Assembly: GCF_010747475.1 (NCBI RefSeq)
Contig: NZ_VSLZ01000002.1
Coordinates: forward strand, 124,001-188,000
Direction: 5' to 3'
Source: Halorussus sp. MSC15.2
GTDB taxonomy: Archaea; Halobacteriota; Halobacteria; Halobacteriales; Haladaptataceae
Length of the DNA: 64,000 nt
How positions within the stretch are numbered: the stretch's first letter is position 1; every line of letters starts with the position of its first letter. The translations under genes and the position numbers were made by a program. The notes under the pieces are model-generated. The model was not told where the DNA came from. It saw only the letters and a list, made by a program, of their open reading frames with translations, and did not search any database. This document shows, one piece after another, positions 6,949 through 13,345 of the stretch.

Positions 6949-8592
6949 TCAGGCGACGCGGCGACGGCGCACGAACAGTGCGAGACCGAGGAGTAGGACC
7001 GCCGCGACTCCGTAGCTGGCGACCGTGTGCGGCGGCGCGCTCGTGACCCCGGAGTAGTCTATCGCCGTCGTCCGGTTCGCGGGACCGAGATACCACAGCA
7101 GGAGATAGCCGATTTCGAAGAGTCGCGACGACTTCGAGACGACGCCCGCGGCGAGCGCCAGCGATGGGACGAAGACGACGCCGACCGCCAGTGCGGCCAA
7201 TCGCGTTGCTTCTCCGGTCAGCGCGAGTCCGGCCGCGGCCGGGGCCACGAAGAGTACGGCGACGACGACGCCCGCCAGCCACGTCGCGGCGAGTTGCGCG
7301 ACCGGGTAGTTCGACGAGAACACCAGCGACTCGGTGCGGTAGCGGTGTTCGCGCGCACCGAGTCCCGACCAGACGAACATCGGCCACACCCACGCGACGA
7401 CGAGGAGGCCGCCGGTCGCGGCCTGGGGTCCAGCGACGAGACCGCCGCCGACGAGGACGGCCGCCCCGAGATACCAGAGCTTCGACCGGCCCCGAACCGC
7501 CATCCGGAGTTCGGCCCCGAGCAGTCGGAGCGGTCGCATCGATTGTGCGGCTCCGTCGAACTCGGGAAGATTCGCGACCGAGTCGCCGGTCGAACCGGCG
7601 GTCGCCGTCTCCTCGTCGCCGGTGGGGTCGGCCACAGAGCGGTCGTCCGCGGGCGAGTCGCCGCCGGTCGCGTCGCCGCGTCCGAGGAGCGCCGACAGTC
7701 GGGACGCACCCGGCAGGGTCGGCCCCGCGGCGGGGTCGAATCGGCGGAAGGGAACCGCCGCGATGGCGATGAGCGCGACGGCGACCGTCAGATAGGCGAC
7801 GCGGTGGACCAGCAGTTCGCGAGTCACGTCGAGACCGCTCCACCGGAAGGTTCCGACCGACCCGGCGACCTGTCCGAACACGTAGCCGCTCCCGTCGTAG
7901 GCCGGATGTTGGGCGACGAGTGCGGTCTCCATGCTCTCTTTGACCAGCGTCCCGCCGAGCGGGTCGACCGGCGACTGGACGACGAGGACGACGAGGCCGA
8001 AGAAGTAGACGACGTTCCCCAGCGACCCGCGGAGGACGGGCGTCGTCTCGAAGAGGACGGCCACCGCGGCGACCAACGCGGCGACCGGAAACGCGACGAA
8101 GACGAACGGCACGACGACGTCCGAGACGACCACGGGTCCGGTGCCCCGAAGCCAGAGGAGCGCGACGACCGACCCGGCCATGACGACCATCAGCGACGCG
8201 AGGACCGCGAGGTTGCTCGCCCATTTCCCGAAGAGGTACTCAAGGTCGCTAATCGACGACGAGGCGACGAGCTGGCCGGGACCGTCGCCTTCGTCGCGGG
8301 CGACCGCGTCTTTGACGAGGTAGAAGCCGAACACCGCCATCGCGGCGCTCGCGGTGAGCGCCATCACCGTCCCAATCCACGCGGCGTTGTAGACACCGCG
8401 ATACCGGGGGTCGCCGAGGACGAGTTGGACGTCCCCGACCGTCGTCAGGTGACCGAGATAGACGCTTGCCACGACGACGGCGAACAGTCGTCGGTCGCGG
8501 ACGCGCGCGAGGAAGTCGGCCTTGGCGACGTGGTAGCACTTCCGAAACACGTCAGACCGCTCCTCGACCTCCGAGTACCGAGAGGTACGCAT
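6949..8592 (-). CDS. ABC-2 type transporter permease, long form
   Basis: 547 residues with about 12 hydrophobic helices in two sets, separated by a charged loop near residues 290-350 (RLSALLGRGDATGG and following). The N-terminus (FRKCYHVAKADFLARVRDRR) is the usual start of ABC-2 permeases; it is followed by LVKDAVARDEGDGPGQLVASS. The start overlaps the upstream ATPase gene by 41 bases, so the two are translationally coupled and form one exporter-type ABC transporter. It is the last gene of the peptide cluster on this strand. The substrate is unknown; export of, or immunity to, the small peptides encoded upstream is an inference from position. Confidence 0.85.
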   Translation of the reverse strand: MRTSRYSEVEERSDVFRKCYHVAKADFLARVRDRRLFAVVVASVYLGHLTTVGDVQLVLGDPRYRGVYNAAWIGTVMALTASAAMAVFGFYLVKDAVARDEGDGPGQLVASSSISDLEYLFGKWASNLAVLASLMVVMAGSVVALLWLRGTGPVVVSDVVVPFVFVAFPVAALVAAVAVLFETTPVLRGSLGNVVYFFGLVVLVVQSPVDPLGGTLVKESMETALVAQHPAYDGSGYVFGQVAGSVGTFRWSGLDVTRELLVHRVAYLTVAVALIAIAAVPFRRFDPAAGPTLPGASRLSALLGRGDATGGDSPADDRSVADPTGDEETATAGSTGDSVANLPEFDGAAQSMRPLRLLGAELRMAVRGRSKLWYLGAAVLVGGGLVAGPQAATGGLLVVAWVWPMFVWSGLGAREHRYRTESLVFSSNYPVAQLAATWLAGVVVAVLFVAPAAAGLALTGEATRLAALAVGVVFVPSLALAAGVVSKSSRLFEIGYLLLWYLGPANRTTAIDYSGVTSAPPHTVASYGVAAVLLLGLALFVRRRRVA

Positions 8593-9439
8593 CTTCGAGC
8601 GACGGGTCGACCGGCGTCGCGTCGGACGCGGGCGCGGTCGGCGACACCGCGCGGACCCGTATCCCGCCGTCGCTCCGGGCGGTCTTCGTCACCGAGTACT
8701 CGGCCTTGACTGCGTCGAGGTCGTCGGTCGACACCGTCCACTGCCACACGTCGCCCTCGACCTGCTCGATTAGGCCTTCCGGTGTCGTCTGCGTCTGGAG
8801 TCGGCCCTCGTCGAGAATCACGAGGTCCGTCGCGGTCGCCTCGATGTCGGAGACGATGTGAGTCGAGAGCAACACGATTCGGTCCTCGGACAGGTCGGCG
8901 ACGACGTTCCGGAACCGGACGCGCTCCTCGGGGTCGAGACCCACCGTCGGTTCGTCCACGACCAGCAGGTCCGGGTCGTTCAACAGCGCCTGCGCGATGC
9001 CGACGCGTTGGCGCATCCCGCCCGAGTACGTCTCCAAACGTCGGTCGCGCACGTCTTCTAGGTTCGTAAGCGCGAGGAGCGCGTCGATGCGGTCGGTCGC
9101 GACGTCCGAGGGCATCCCTTTCAGCGCGGCGACGTATTCGAGGAACTCCTCGGCGGTCAGGCTGGGATAGACGCCGAAGTCCTGTGGGAGGTATCCCAAC
9201 ACCGACCGCAACTGGTCGGGGGACTCCGTCACGTCGGTTCCGTTCCACCGAATCTCACCCTTCGTCGGTTTCGTGACGGTAGTTATCATCTGCATGAGCG
9301 TCGACTTGCCGGCGCCGTTCGGCCCGAGGAGTCCGAAGACGCCCGGTTCCAACTCGATGCTCACGTCTCGAAGCCCCCATACATCGGGACCCCAACGCTT
9401 TCCAAGGTTCGAAAGGGATAGATGCATCGTTCCTTCCAT
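8552..9439 (-). CDS. ABC transporter ATP-binding protein (partner of the long permease)
   Basis: 295 residues from ATG 9439 (ATG 9427 would give 291). Walker A GPNGAGKSTLMQM sits near residue 41. The signature is YSGGMRQRVGIAQAL, Walker B is LLVVDEPTVGLD, and the H-loop is LSTHIVSD. A C-terminal extension of about 80 residues ends at GGRGAV. It is the CcmA/DrrA type, pairing with ABC-2 permeases for export, bacteriocin immunity or Cu/Na efflux. The 41-base overlap with the permease shows that the two act together. The gap to the 447-residue gene upstream is 47 bases and AT-rich, so it may be co-transcribed or have its own promoter. Confidence 0.9.
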   Translation of the reverse strand: MEGTMHLSLSNLGKRWGPDVWGLRDVSIELEPGVFGLLGPNGAGKSTLMQMITTVTKPTKGEIRWNGTDVTESPDQLRSVLGYLPQDFGVYPSLTAEEFLEYVAALKGMPSDVATDRIDALLALTNLEDVRDRRLETYSGGMRQRVGIAQALLNDPDLLVVDEPTVGLDPEERVRFRNVVADLSEDRIVLLSTHIVSDIEATATDLVILDEGRLQTQTTPEGLIEQVEGDVWQWTVSTDDLDAVKAEYSVTKTARSDGGIRVRAVSPTAPASDATPVDPSLEDAYLSVLGGRGAV

Positions 9440-9486
9440 CGATTTTATCGCGGATTGTATTTGTTGTTCATGTTTCCGTGGGTGAA

Positions 9487-10830
9487 TTACCGGTCTCGAA
9501 TCGCGTCGATGGTCTCTCGGCAGGTCTCGGTGGTCGGAGAGAGTAGTTGTTCCGCGAAGCTCTCCTCGTCGTGGTCTTCGTCCATCGAGAGATACACTCG
9601 CTTCTCGTCGGTCCAGAAGCCGAACTCGCCGTCCGGGCGTTGCTGGGCTTCGAGGAATTCGACCGCGAACTCGAAGACGTCGGGGTAGGCCGCCGCTGTC
9701 GGTGTGTCCGCGAGGTCGCGGAGTCGGTCCGCGCTCTCTCGCAGGTCGTAGTCCGCCAGCGAGTCGAACACCGCGCCGAGTTCGTAGAGGTTCTCGGCCT
9801 CCTCGTCGTAGTTGAGGTCGCGTCGGTTCTCCTCGCGGTCGATTTCGGGCCACGCCTCGCCGAGGATGCGACCCATCGACGCCGCGACCAGCGTCGGGTG
9901 ATAGTGTCGTCCCCACTTCGCGCTTTCGTCGTCCCACGTGCCCATATCTAGGTCCGTGAGTCCGTCCGACTCGGCAACCGCGCTGATGGGAAGGCCGTCG
10001 GCGGGACTCGGCACGTACCCCTCGTCCGCGACCTGTTCGAGGAGCCATCCGAGGGCGAACCGAGCGAGTCCCGGCGGGAGTTGACGCTGGAGCGCCGCGG
10101 AGTAGAGGAGTTCGCCCACTAGGTCACAGTCGTCGGCCGCGATGAAGCGCAGAAGCAGCCCGTGGAGCGTCTCGGGGTGGTCGTACGACACCGCGTCGCC
10201 GGGGAACCCGTCTCCGGGGTTCCCGAAGTTGTGGTAGAACAGGAAGTTGTGAGTCAGCGCGTACACCTCGCGCCGAGTCATCTCGACCGGATTCAGCCGA
10301 TAGCTCGCACAGCTCTGGTCCACGAGAGCGTCGAAGTCAGGCGTGTCGTACGGGACGTCGTAGCCGTACATCCGTGCGAGGTGTTGGAGGTCGAGCTTTC
10401 GGAACGGCGGGAGTTCGGTCGCCCACACCGTCTGACGGTCGAGGGTCCGGTGTAGCATCTCGCGGGCCTCGTCCGAGAGTTCGCCGTGGGTCGATGCGTA
10501 GACGAGGGGATACCCGAACTTGTGGACCTCCTGAGGGTTGCGCGCCAATAGCTGCTGGTACTCGAAGTCGTTCGACCGCTCTATCAGTAACTGCTTCAGC
10601 CGTTCTGCTCTCGGTTCGCCCTCACGCTCGGCGACGTGGAGGTAGAGCGCCGACTCGCCGAAGGCCTTGCGGCGAACGCTCCGCTGCTCGATGTCGCCCC
10701 AGTTCATCGGGTCGAACTGGTCGGCGTGGGCCTCAATCCACTCGTCCGCCCGGACCGTGAGGTCTCGAAGTTCGGACTCGAACTTCGAGGCGGGGACGGG
10801 GTCGGGCATAGGGGTCGTTTCGGCTTTCAT
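9487..10830 (-). CDS. 447-residue protein of the peptide cluster, unrecognised
   Basis: Soluble, mostly helical, rich in His, Tyr and Trp. Notable segments are QLLARNPQEVHKFGYPLVYA, DLQHLARMYGYDVPYDTPDF, NPVEMTRREVYALTHNFLF followed by YHNFGNPGDGFPGD, and near the C-terminus EFLEAQQRPDGEFGFWTDEKR. The last resembles an alpha/alpha-barrel repeat (QxxDGxFG) as in terpene-cyclase-like or lanthionine-cyclase-like folds. The TREEVYALTH-type motif recalls uncharacterised helical proteins of actinobacterial peptide clusters (possibly DUF6895), but that is memory and untested. It has no membrane helix, signal or known catalytic motif. It lies directly downstream of the two small peptide genes and upstream of an ABC pair, so a role in peptide processing or recognition is plausible. 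Confidence 0.7.
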   Translation of the reverse strand: MKAETTPMPDPVPASKFESELRDLTVRADEWIEAHADQFDPMNWGDIEQRSVRRKAFGESALYLHVAEREGEPRAERLKQLLIERSNDFEYQQLLARNPQEVHKFGYPLVYASTHGELSDEAREMLHRTLDRQTVWATELPPFRKLDLQHLARMYGYDVPYDTPDFDALVDQSCASYRLNPVEMTRREVYALTHNFLFYHNFGNPGDGFPGDAVSYDHPETLHGLLLRFIAADDCDLVGELLYSAALQRQLPPGLARFALGWLLEQVADEGYVPSPADGLPISAVAESDGLTDLDMGTWDDESAKWGRHYHPTLVAASMGRILGEAWPEIDREENRRDLNYDEEAENLYELGAVFDSLADYDLRESADRLRDLADTPTAAAYPDVFEFAVEFLEAQQRPDGEFGFWTDEKRVYLSMDEDHDEESFAEQLLSPTTETCRETIDAIRDR

Positions 10831-10852
10831 ACAACTATTCTAATACCCACAT

Positions 10853-10862
10853 CATATTTAAT
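10853..10862 (-). promoter_or_regulatory. TATA box of the 447-residue gene
   Basis: Minus-strand gattaaatatga is centred about 27 bases before ATG 10830 in a clearly AT-rich stretch. It suggests that the 447-residue gene and the following ABC pair have their own promoter, separate from the peptide genes. Confidence 0.5.
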
Positions 10863-10924
10863 CTTCGATATTTGCGAATACGTATTATGTGGAGGTCCCG
10901 CGATTCTACCCACGGAGTATCGCG

Positions 10925-10937
10925 AAAAATTTTGCGG
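10925..10937 (-). terminator. possible terminator after the peptide genes
   Basis: On the minus strand a GC-rich stretch after the second peptide gene ends in ccgcaaaatttttcgcg. The T5 run follows the stop codon by about 40 bases, as in archaeal oligo-T terminators. It would limit read-through into the 447-residue gene. Confidence 0.35.
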
Positions 10938-10969
10938 TTACGTCGCTGAAGTGCTACGAATCCGCCGGT

Positions 10970-11086
10970 TCAGTTCTTGACGTCGTAAACGTAGCTGCCA
11001 CCGACGAAGGTGTAGTCTTCGGGGTTGGTGATGGTGCTGGTCTGTGCGACTTCGGTCAGGTCACTGAGGGAGATGTTGTTACTCAT
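10970..11086 (-). CDS. small peptide B (38 aa), candidate precursor peptide
   Basis: 38 residues, ATG 11086 to TGA 10970. It begins MSNNISLSDLTEVAQTS, continues TITNPEDYTFVGG and ends SYVYDVKN. The first half is nearly identical to peptide A just upstream (SLSDLTEVAQTS in both), then TNP-x-DY is shared, and the last 12 residues diverge. It has no cysteine, no signal peptide and no membrane helix. Only 3 bases (cca) separate its ATG from the peptide A stop, so translation is coupled. Codon use (GC at third positions, acidic residues) is that of a real gene. The constant-leader, variable-core pattern suggests a ribosomal peptide precursor or a signalling peptide. A small structural protein is possible. 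Confidence 0.75.
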   Translation of the reverse strand: MSNNISLSDLTEVAQTSTITNPEDYTFVGGSYVYDVKN

Positions 11087-11089
11087 TGG

Positions 11090-11203
11090 TTAGTCCTTGA
11101 CGTAGAGCGTGTGGTTGTCGCCCGAGTAGATGTAGTCCTGCGGGTTGGTGATGCTGGTCTGTGCGACTTCGGTCAGGTCGCTGAGGGAAACGTGTTCAGA
11201 CAT
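11090..11203 (-). CDS. small peptide A (37 aa), candidate precursor peptide
   Basis: 37 residues, ATG 11203 to TAA 11090. It begins MSEHVSLSDLTEVAQTS, continues ITNPQDYIYSG and ends DNHTLYVKD. It is paralogous to peptide B, with 12 identical residues in a row in the N-terminal half and shared ITNP, DY and a C-terminal V-K-acid/amide. It has no Cys, so disulphide or lanthionine chemistry is unlikely. It is preceded by a perfect hairpin and an AT-rich promoter region. It lies between an upstream ABC exporter pair plus a 60-residue protein and a downstream 447-residue protein plus a second ABC pair, all on the same strand. Peptide export or signalling is inferred from this context only. Confidence 0.75.
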   Translation of the reverse strand: MSEHVSLSDLTEVAQTSITNPQDYIYSGDNHTLYVKD

Positions 11204-11214
11204 TGGTTGTCCAC

Positions 11215-11233
11215 GGCGGTGAGTGTCACCGCC
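11215..11233. promoter_or_regulatory. perfect hairpin/dyad just before peptide A
   Basis: The plus strand reads ggcggtga, gtg, tcaccgcc: an 8-bp perfect inverted repeat with a 3-base loop, ending 11 bases before the peptide A start codon at 11203. No T-run follows, so it is not a plain terminator. It could be an operator dyad at the transcription start, or an mRNA leader hairpin if transcription starts from the TATA-like stretch near 11272. Confidence 0.55.
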
Positions 11234-11248
11234 ATATCATTACCTGTT

Positions 11249-11289
11249 CTGTTATATGTTAAATCTTTCTGTTATAAAATATTTTATTC
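11249..11289 (-). promoter_or_regulatory. AT-rich promoter region of the peptide genes
   Basis: The minus strand carries aaaatattttataac followed by gatttaacatataac, two candidate TATA boxes in a stretch far more AT-rich than the surrounding genes. Distances of about 50 and 75 bases to the peptide A ATG mean the transcript may have a short leader containing the hairpin at 11215-11233, unlike most leaderless genes here. Confidence 0.45.
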
Positions 11290-11307
11290 ATGTGGACAGA
11301 AGAAAAC

Positions 11308-11490
11308 CTAGTCGTCGCTCTCGTCGAGAACGCGGTCTATCGGTCGCTGCCGGTCGTACTTGATTATGAACGCGCCTTTCTGGCCGTTGAACACGTACGA
11401 CCGCGAAAAGGGGATTTTCACGTGGAGTTTCTCGGTCAGACTCTTGAGCGTAACGTCGTCCGGTTCGCTCACTCGCTCCTCGTCGCTCAT
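11308..11490 (-). CDS. 60-aa protein of the peptide cluster
   Basis: 60 residues with a charged N-terminus (MSDEERVSEPDD), then VTLKSLTEKLHVKIPF, SRSYVFNGQKGAFIIKYD and a polar tail (RQRPIDRVLDESDD). The VTLKSLTE segment resembles the V/I-S-L-S-D-L-T-E leader segment of the two small peptides next to it. The middle part looks like two or three beta strands, so this may be a small peptide-binding or carrier domain, or a longer relative of the precursors. It has no signal or membrane helix. Its own AT-rich upstream region holds a 14-bp perfect palindrome. Confidence 0.65.
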   Translation of the reverse strand: MSDEERVSEPDDVTLKSLTEKLHVKIPFSRSYVFNGQKGAFIIKYDRQRPIDRVLDESDD

Positions 11491-11502
11491 TGATATATCT
11501 AT

Positions 11503-11516
11503 GTTATTATAATAAC
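11503..11516. promoter_or_regulatory. 14-bp perfect palindrome before the 60-aa gene
   Basis: GTTATTATAATAAC reads the same on both strands. It lies 13 bases before the start of the 60-residue gene, in the 44-base gap after the ABC permease gene. Nearby ttaaaattt may be the TATA box. It could be a regulator binding site; chance is possible in so AT-rich a stretch. Confidence 0.45.
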
Positions 11517-11534
11517 TTAAAATTTGCCAAAATT

Positions 11535-12329
11535 TTAGTATTCGCCCAGTACGCCTCGCTCACGCGCCGTCCGCTGGACGAACCGAAACGCGCCGTACCC
11601 GATTCCGAGGTAGACGACGCCCACGGCGACGAGGAGTCCGAGGTCAGCGGCCGGGAGCTCCAGCAGGCTCTTTTGCTGACCCATCGCCTCGCGGAGCAGG
11701 TAGCTACCGAGCGAGAACGGCGCGAACTTGAACAGCGGGAACTGCTCGACGGGAGCCGCAACGAGACCGACGAACGCGAACTGCATGAGTTGGAACGCGC
11801 TCTCGACCCGTTTGTACAGGAGGGCGAGACCGCCGAAGATGTACCCCAGTCCGACCGCGGGGGCCAGCGTCAGGACGACTATCGGGACGACGGTGAGGGG
11901 GTCGAGGCTCAGCGCGACACCGCCCGACACCACCTCCATCGTCGCGAGCATCAAGACGAGCAGCGTCGTCGAGACGAGCAGGCTCACGGCGACGTTGACC
12001 ACTGTCTTGACGCCGACGACTCGGTCGAATCCGAGCGGTGACATGTAGAGCTGTTCGAGCGTCCCCCACTGGGCTTCGTTCGTGATGTTACCTGCGATGG
12101 ACGAGTAGGCGCTCATGATGAGCATCCAGAGGAAGTATCCCACGATGATGCCGTCTATCGACTCGGTGATGGCCGCGCCAGCGACCTGTTGGCCGCCGAA
12201 GAACATGACCGCGAACAGCATGTACATGCTGACGATTTGGGCGACCGTGTTGAAGAGGTAGCGCCGCATCAGGATGAGCGACTTGAACAGCGACGCTCGC
12301 GTGAAGAGGTAGAGATGTCCCGCGCTCAT
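11535..12329 (-). CDS. ABC-2 type transporter permease (264 aa)
   Basis: 264 residues with six hydrophobic helices, the usual size for a DrrB/NodJ-like ABC-2 permease. The cytoplasmic N-terminus (RASLFKSLILMRRYLFNTVAQIV) and EAQWGTLEQLYMSPLGFDRVVG after the second helix are family features: the amphipathic coupling region faces the ATPase. Its start overlaps the ATPase stop by 4 bases (ATGA), so both are made together. Exporter type; substrate unknown. It lies directly upstream of the small-peptide genes on the same strand. Confidence 0.9.
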   Translation of the reverse strand: MSAGHLYLFTRASLFKSLILMRRYLFNTVAQIVSMYMLFAVMFFGGQQVAGAAITESIDGIIVGYFLWMLIMSAYSSIAGNITNEAQWGTLEQLYMSPLGFDRVVGVKTVVNVAVSLLVSTTLLVLMLATMEVVSGGVALSLDPLTVVPIVVLTLAPAVGLGYIFGGLALLYKRVESAFQLMQFAFVGLVAAPVEQFPLFKFAPFSLGSYLLREAMGQQKSLLELPAADLGLLVAVGVVYLGIGYGAFRFVQRTARERGVLGEY

Positions 12330-13345
12330 GCTCGGGTCTCCACCATCTCGGGCGCGTCGTCCGTTCTGGTCTCGTCGGCGCCGTCGGCGGTCACTTCGAG
12401 GAAGACCTCTTCGAGGTCGGGTTGGACGACCGACACCGACCGGGGCGTCAGGTCGAACTCCTCGAGAACGGCCATCAGGTCGTGGACCCGCTCGCGTTCG
12501 GTCATCGAAACCTCACAGACCATCCAGTCGCCGCGCTCGCGCCACTCGTTCACGTCGAACTCACGTTCGAGCGCTCGCTGCGCCGCCGTCGGAGCGTCGT
12601 CTTCGACCACGACTTCGTACGATTCGGTCTGGAACAGGTCTACGAGTTCCGAGACGGACTCGTCGGTCACGATTTCCCCGTCGTCCATGATGATGACGCG
12701 GTCACAGAGGTCCTGCACCACGTCCATGTCGTGGCTGCTCAGGATGACCGTCCGATTCTCCTGAGTAACGAGTCGGTCGAGTTCCTGCCGTAGGTCGTGA
12801 GACGCCTCCACGTCGAGTCCGAGCGTCGGTTCGTCCAGAAAGAGGACCGGCGTCTGGCGGACGAGCGCACAGGCCAGTGCAGTCTTCTGTTTCATGCCCC
12901 GCGAGAGGTTCTTGACCACCTCGTCGGCCTTGTGGTCGATGTTCAGTAATTCCAGCAACTCCTCGTGCTCCTCGCGGTGGTCTCGCGGGTCGATGCCCTG
13001 TAGCTGCGAGAAGAACGAGAGGTTCTCCTTGACTGTCAACCGCCAGTAGACGTTTCGAGCGCCTTCGAGGACGGCGCTCACTTTCCGGTAGGTCTCGCTG
13101 CTCTCGTCGTGGACGTTCACGCCATCGACTTCGACGTCACCCTCTTCTGGAAGGACGATACCGAGGATGGATTTGATGGTCGAGGTCTTTCCGGCTCCGT
13201 TCGGTCCGAGGAGTCCGACGACGGAGCCGCGTTCGACGGAGAACGACACGTCGTCGACGGCGACCACACTGCCGTCGCCGTACGTCTTTCGGAGTCCATC
13301 GACCGAGAGGACTGGATTTTCCTGTCTGTGTTCTGGTGAATCCAT
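12326..13345 (-). CDS. ABC transporter ATP-binding protein (339 aa)
   Basis: 339 residues. Walker A GPNGAGKTSTIKS is near residue 44, the signature is LSRGMKQKTALACAL, Walker B VLFLDEPTLGLD, and the H-loop SSHDMDVV. An about 120-residue C-terminal domain follows (ESYEVVVEDDAPTAAQ and onward, ending in a polar tail), as in DrrA-type ATPases of drug and peptide exporters. It is the first gene of the peptide cluster, coupled by a 4-base overlap to its permease. ATG 13345 lies 26 bases after a TATA box (aaaattttac). Confidence 0.92.
   Translation of the reverse strand: MDSPEHRQENPVLSVDGLRKTYGDGSVVAVDDVSFSVERGSVVGLLGPNGAGKTSTIKSILGIVLPEEGDVEVDGVNVHDESSETYRKVSAVLEGARNVYWRLTVKENLSFFSQLQGIDPRDHREEHEELLELLNIDHKADEVVKNLSRGMKQKTALACALVRQTPVLFLDEPTLGLDVEASHDLRQELDRLVTQENRTVILSSHDMDVVQDLCDRVIIMDDGEIVTDESVSELVDLFQTESYEVVVEDDAPTAAQRALEREFDVNEWRERGDWMVCEVSMTERERVHDLMAVLEEFDLTPRSVSVVQPDLEEVFLEVTADGADETRTDDAPEMVETRA

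Follow-up and report, generated by a model that had tools for sequence, protein, structure and literature searches.

The window analyzed here, a stretch of 64,000 nucleotides from Halorussus sp. MSC15.2, contains a set of genes that very probably constitutes a RiPP cluster. Our best explanation of the locus as a whole, to which we assign a probability of roughly 0.6, is that a protein of Pfam family DUF6895 inverts residues in the cores of short precursor peptides and that two ABC pairs export the product and protect the producer. That the DUF6895 protein acts on these peptides is proposed with good confidence, and epimerization is favored, with moderate confidence, as its reaction. As the only modifying enzyme encoded in the cluster, it most likely installs D-residues in Cys-free hydrophobic cores. 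The product is probably a modified peptide, either an antibiotic or a signal, with no described archaeal counterpart.

The gene cluster and its precursor peptides

A preliminary description of this DNA listed two ABC pairs and proteins of 60, 37, 38, and 447 aa; all of these ORFs were found, each on the minus strand. The features are listed below in the order in which they are transcribed.

12326..13345, minus strand: ABC-A ATPase (DrrA-like), predicted to function in export or immunity (PF00005, E 2.3e-32)
11535..12329, minus strand: ABC-A permease, 264 aa (weak PF12698 match)
11308..11490, minus strand: 60-aa ORF, probable third precursor, with an LTE leader and a longer C-terminal part
11212..11236, minus strand: hairpin with an 11-bp stem, directly before the start of peptide 1 (folding z −4.3, 113-nt segment)
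11090..11203, minus strand: precursor peptide 1, 37 aa, with leader MSEHVSLSDLTEVAQTS... and core ...DYIYSGDNHTLYVKD
10970..11086, minus strand: precursor peptide 2, 38 aa, with the leader as in peptide 1 and core ...DYTFVGGSYVYDVKN
9487..10830, minus strand: DUF6895 protein, 447 aa, proposed peptide epimerase (PF21836, E 1.6e-39)
8552..9436, minus strand: ABC-B ATPase (PF00005, E 1.7e-34)
6949..8592, minus strand: predicted ABC-B permease, 547 aa (homologs beside the ABC-B ATPase elsewhere)

The ABC-A permease and ABC-A ATPase genes overlap by 4 bp, the genes for peptides 1 and 2 are separated by 3 bp, and the GC content drops to 51% in the peptide-gene region. No peptidase gene was present in the window cluster. 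The top NCBIfam model for the ABC-A ATPase was drrA, with a score under that model's cut-off. Homologs of the ABC-A ATPase and permease adjoin DUF6895 in seven further haloarchaeal loci, while ABC-B ATPase homologs (57 to 71% identical) occur in six further DUF6895 loci, with homologs of the ABC-B permease invariably beside them; the permease homolog in locus L021, from the haloarchaeon HArc-gm2 (genome G282), gave a weak ABC2_membrane_2 match. Strong hairpins 5' of the peptide genes were observed both in the window and at L021:6620-6762 (z −4.9). Possibly, they serve mRNA processing or expression control at the junction of the 60-aa ORF and the peptide genes.

The two tandem peptides had been interpreted as a constant leader with a variable core, and codon comparisons agreed with this. 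Between peptides 1 and 2, leader codons 6 to 25 share 93% nucleotide identity, compared with 59% for the core codons (10/13 nonsynonymous). The pattern was repeated in HArc-gm2, where the L021 peptides are MTNELTIGELTEL...GWSSFIIDCEDGVCEN and MTSELTIGELTEL...GWSDWVLAVDE. Because the contrast between leader and core codons is seen again in this independent genome, the tandem peptides are beyond chance, and short precursor genes with a conserved leader and a variable core, one criterion for a RiPP cluster, are present. The cores are hydrophobic, with many aromatic and beta-branched residues. Cys is absent from all three window peptides (37, 38, and 60 aa), and thioether and disulfide chemistry is therefore excluded.

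The 60-aa ORF, which the preliminary description correctly reported but set apart from the peptides, is counted here as a probable third precursor, since a 59-aa ORF lies at the same place in L021 (43% identity, E 6e-9) and its LTE motif aligns with the leaders of the peptides. Almost identical peptide copies occur in haloarchaeal loci L025 and L046; because the differences between copies are mostly synonymous, they are taken to be real coding genes under selection.

The DUF6895 protein

The 447-aa protein, previously called unrecognized, matches Pfam DUF6895 (PF21836) with 136.4 bits against a curated cut-off of 23.8. A linked gene for a peptide-modifying enzyme, a further criterion for a RiPP cluster, is provided by this profile match, the activity being taken from a title: Shi et al. 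(ACS Catalysis, 2026, 10.1021/acscatal.5c08590; reference 371 in PMC13352647) refer there to a lasso-peptide epimerase of the DUF6895 family. The mention of DUF6895 found in the open literature was confined to the reference list of PMC13352647. Going by that title, the earlier statement that no known maturase is encoded is not supported, and the chemistry, which had been expected to be new if the locus were a RiPP cluster, is probably not new in itself.

Twelve residues, including K55, E59, T193, H194, D236, E240, Y310, and H311, are invariant in 13 archaeal and bacterial DUF6895 homologs (two of them bacterial) and are candidates for acid/base chemistry. Haloarchaeal and bacterial proteins are ∼25% identical, and the haloarchaeal proteins have an extra C-terminal region, beyond the Pfam domain, in which a W-x-DE motif is conserved. 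A structure model predicted from two sequences was mostly helical and of low quality (pLDDT 46.5), insufficient for a fold search. The domain and the C-terminal part are found as two ORFs at L051:6962-8554, on a Bacillota plasmid, and at L026:7497-8780, in the genome of the window; this split points to a domain boundary around residue 290. The L026 gene (G000:C6:143497-144779) is a second DUF6895 gene of this genome, located in a split-LanM cluster; its frame is broken between domain and C-terminal part by a frameshift or an assembly error. A DUF4135-type gene, a LanC gene, and two Cys-containing precursors occupy L026:8937-12621.

We infer the following course of events. Peptides 1 and 2, and probably the 60-aa ORF product as a further precursor, carry a conserved N-terminal leader motif, xLTE, that would be recognized by DUF6895, and the enzyme would modify the C-terminal core, which is variable, Cys-free, and made up largely of aromatic and beta-branched residues. 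The modification would most likely be an L-to-D inversion of one or more alpha-carbons, achieved by acid/base catalysis at the conserved His, Asp, Glu, and Lys residues. The leader would be trimmed by a peptidase encoded outside the cluster, one ABC pair may export the product while the other protects the producer, and the mature peptide may act as an antagonist or a signal.

Recurrence in haloarchaea and bacteria

HArc-gm2 has the full gene set as well, its leaders conserved and its cores different; recurrence of this kind was the check that the preliminary description had proposed. HArc-gm2 was the only match in scans of GTDB contigs, and the viral contigs scanned gave no match. Among 391 Halobacteria genomes, 12 were matched at E ≤0.001 by a profile of six DUF6895 proteins; in three of the 12 (G265, G357, and G028), the matches were short and partial only. 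Loci L048 and L049, which have short partial matches only and no peptide cluster, were left out.

Besides the window and L021, DUF6895 accompanies short peptides in five stand-alone haloarchaeal loci, four of which have LT[EA] leaders. LTE/LTA peptides with DUF6895 and no adjacent lanthipeptide enzyme characterize the window, L021, L025, L027, and L028; L046 has the same type of peptide, but a DUF4135 gene lies ∼2 kb from its DUF6895 gene. L047 has one 51-aa, Cys-containing peptide, and in L024 an S9 peptidase was found with DUF6895 but a precursor was not. Four loci (L022, L023, L026, and L045) combine DUF6895 with a split LanM (separate DUF4135 and LANC_like genes) and Cys-containing, lanthipeptide-like precursors; in such clusters, DUF6895 is a candidate tailoring enzyme. 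S9 peptidases, candidate leader peptidases, are encoded in L024, L025, L027, and L046. ABC-A is present in 8 of the 12 haloarchaeal loci and ABC-B in 7, and an MFS transporter adjoins DUF6895 in L027 and L046.

A profile of 13 precursors was searched against 292 Halobacteria genomes. Matches at E<1e-3 were restricted to G000, G282, G124, and G147, each beside DUF6895, with none away from DUF6895 loci; recovery of these loci is by construction, as the profile was built from them, and the lack of other strong matches is informative within the limits of a short motif. Weaker matches in other genomes (E 0.008 to 1; best, 0.008) were mostly inside long reading frames and were discarded. Upstream of DUF6895, 15 of 41 short ORFs had an early LT[EA], compared with 9 of 688 at other positions in these loci (Fisher p ∼1e-14), a value that is optimistic and indicative only, given that paralogs were counted, the motif was picked after inspection, and one of the 15 looks spurious.

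These results sustain the earlier view that the locus is a haloarchaeal cluster for ribosomal peptides with constant leader and variable core, exported by ABC transporters: the set recurs, orphan precursors were absent at the above threshold, and the C-terminal ends vary, both between peptides 1 and 2 and in HArc-gm2. The expected tie of the peptides to the 447-aa protein and the ABC genes held for the protein in the 292 genomes and failed for the ABC genes in L027. Because L027 has a peptide, DUF6895, and an MFS transporter with no ABC pair nearby, the ABC genes are exchangeable and the DUF6895 gene is not.

Bacterial DUF6895 genes, sought by tblastn in plasmids only, were found in Kitasatospora, Streptomyces, Pseudalkalibacillus, and Cupriavidus. 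In six annotated plasmid records, an ORF of 62 to 118 aa lies just upstream of DUF6895 or heads the same small gene group; four of these ORFs have a common leader-like stretch (SGLL/I...TxxQLL-like), and two others have common GGLLLSP-like ends. No annotated lasso or lanthipeptide genes were present in the plasmid stretches, and thus the pairing of DUF6895 with just a short peptide is found in bacteria too. An operon on a Streptomyces fungicidicus plasmid (L066:4037-6807) contains two DUF6895 genes in tandem, along with genes for a 62-aa peptide and an unknown protein of 231 aa; the arrangement in Kitasatospora fiedleri (L069) is similar, with a GGLLLSP-like peptide end.

In a 16-row tree of DUF6895, the haloarchaeal proteins formed one clade (99/99) apart from the bacterial ones, and nested in it was a clade of the lanthipeptide-associated proteins (99/99), adjacent to those of the window and L021. 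Given this nesting, parsimony suggests that in haloarchaea stand-alone use of DUF6895 preceded its acquisition by lanthipeptide clusters. Distribution is patchy, with the gene in only two sampled genomes of the window's genus.

Alternative readings and comparison with known systems

It is conceivable, though unlikely, that the locus is a RiPP cluster in which haloarchaeal DUF6895 performs other chemistry (e.g., cyclization, dehydration, or leader cleavage): a family name does not fix a reaction, identity to bacterial DUF6895 is low, and the haloarchaeal proteins have the additional region with the W-x-DE motif. With no peptidase in the window cluster, DUF6895 could even be the leader peptidase, but four DUF6895 loci have an S9 peptidase too, and the catalytic candidate residues are invariant in archaea and bacteria, which argues against a different chemistry in haloarchaea.

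Secretion of unmodified peptides, signaling or bacteriocin-like, with DUF6895 merely binding or chaperoning them would suit acidic peptides without Cys that are encoded with two transporters and no other enzyme. We consider it improbable, as enzymatic activity is reported in the family, by title, and the invariant polar residues are typical of an active site. That the short ORFs are small structural or regulatory proteins in a coincidental neighborhood is very improbable indeed, given their recurrence with DUF6895 in unrelated genomes, the conservation of the leader while the core diverges, the tandem duplication, and the synonymous bias of divergence.

Archaeal RiPPs are known mainly as lanthipeptides. 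If DUF6895 epimerizes the window peptides, as we favor, a role for it as sole maturase of this precursor family in archaea seems not to have been described, and another type of haloarchaeal RiPP beside the lanthipeptides, with one recognizable maturase, would open new archaeal antagonistic or signaling peptides. Lasso, lanthionine, and radical SAM machinery are all absent from the cluster, so that enzyme and precursor would form a simple two-gene system for placing D-residues in ribosomal peptides. We suggest, tentatively, that DUF6895 represents a RiPP class of its own in archaea and bacteria, with one non-radical-SAM enzyme that epimerizes diverse precursors and was later recruited to haloarchaeal lanthipeptide clusters; if true, it would be the first RiPP family with D-amino acids to come from Archaea. 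The loci found here indicate that DUF6895 is usable as a mining handle.

The lasso-peptide epimerase of Shi et al. (2026) is, by its title, of the same Pfam family and acts on a ribosomal peptide; the title places it in a lasso cluster, whereas the window cluster is without lasso genes. A lasso pathway, in the cluster or in trans, was rejected: no lasso cyclase is among the cluster genes, and no match to the lasso B protein PF13471 (transglutaminase-like) was found anywhere in the genome. MslH, of the lasso peptide MS-271 (PMC10406935), likewise epimerizes a RiPP alpha-carbon without radical SAM chemistry, as proposed for DUF6895; its family differs, as far as can be judged from sequence, and a search of the PDB with the DUF6895 profile gave no chain with an E value of 1 or less.

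The YydF/EpeX epipeptide cluster of Bacillus subtilis (PMC7026026) resembles the window cluster in its short precursor, hydrophobic core, and one epimerase as sole modifier (proposed here). The operon, yydFGHIJ, encodes precursor, epimerase, protease, and an ABC transporter postulated for immunity (PMC7026026). It relies on the radical SAM enzyme YydG and a dedicated protease, YydH, whereas the window has DUF6895, no cluster protease, and two ABC pairs; membership in this type was rejected, as no radical SAM domain occurs among the cluster proteins. A lanthipeptide assignment, which would call for LanM/LanC genes and for Ser/Thr plus Cys in the core, was also rejected, because the cluster lacks LanM and LanC and none of the three window peptides contains Cys. 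Haloarchaeal class II lanthipeptides (PMC10105419, PMC12144867) are, like the products proposed here, haloarchaeal RiPPs with tandem precursors, and DUF6895 is found in some of the haloarchaeal clusters that encode DUF4135 and LANC_like proteins.
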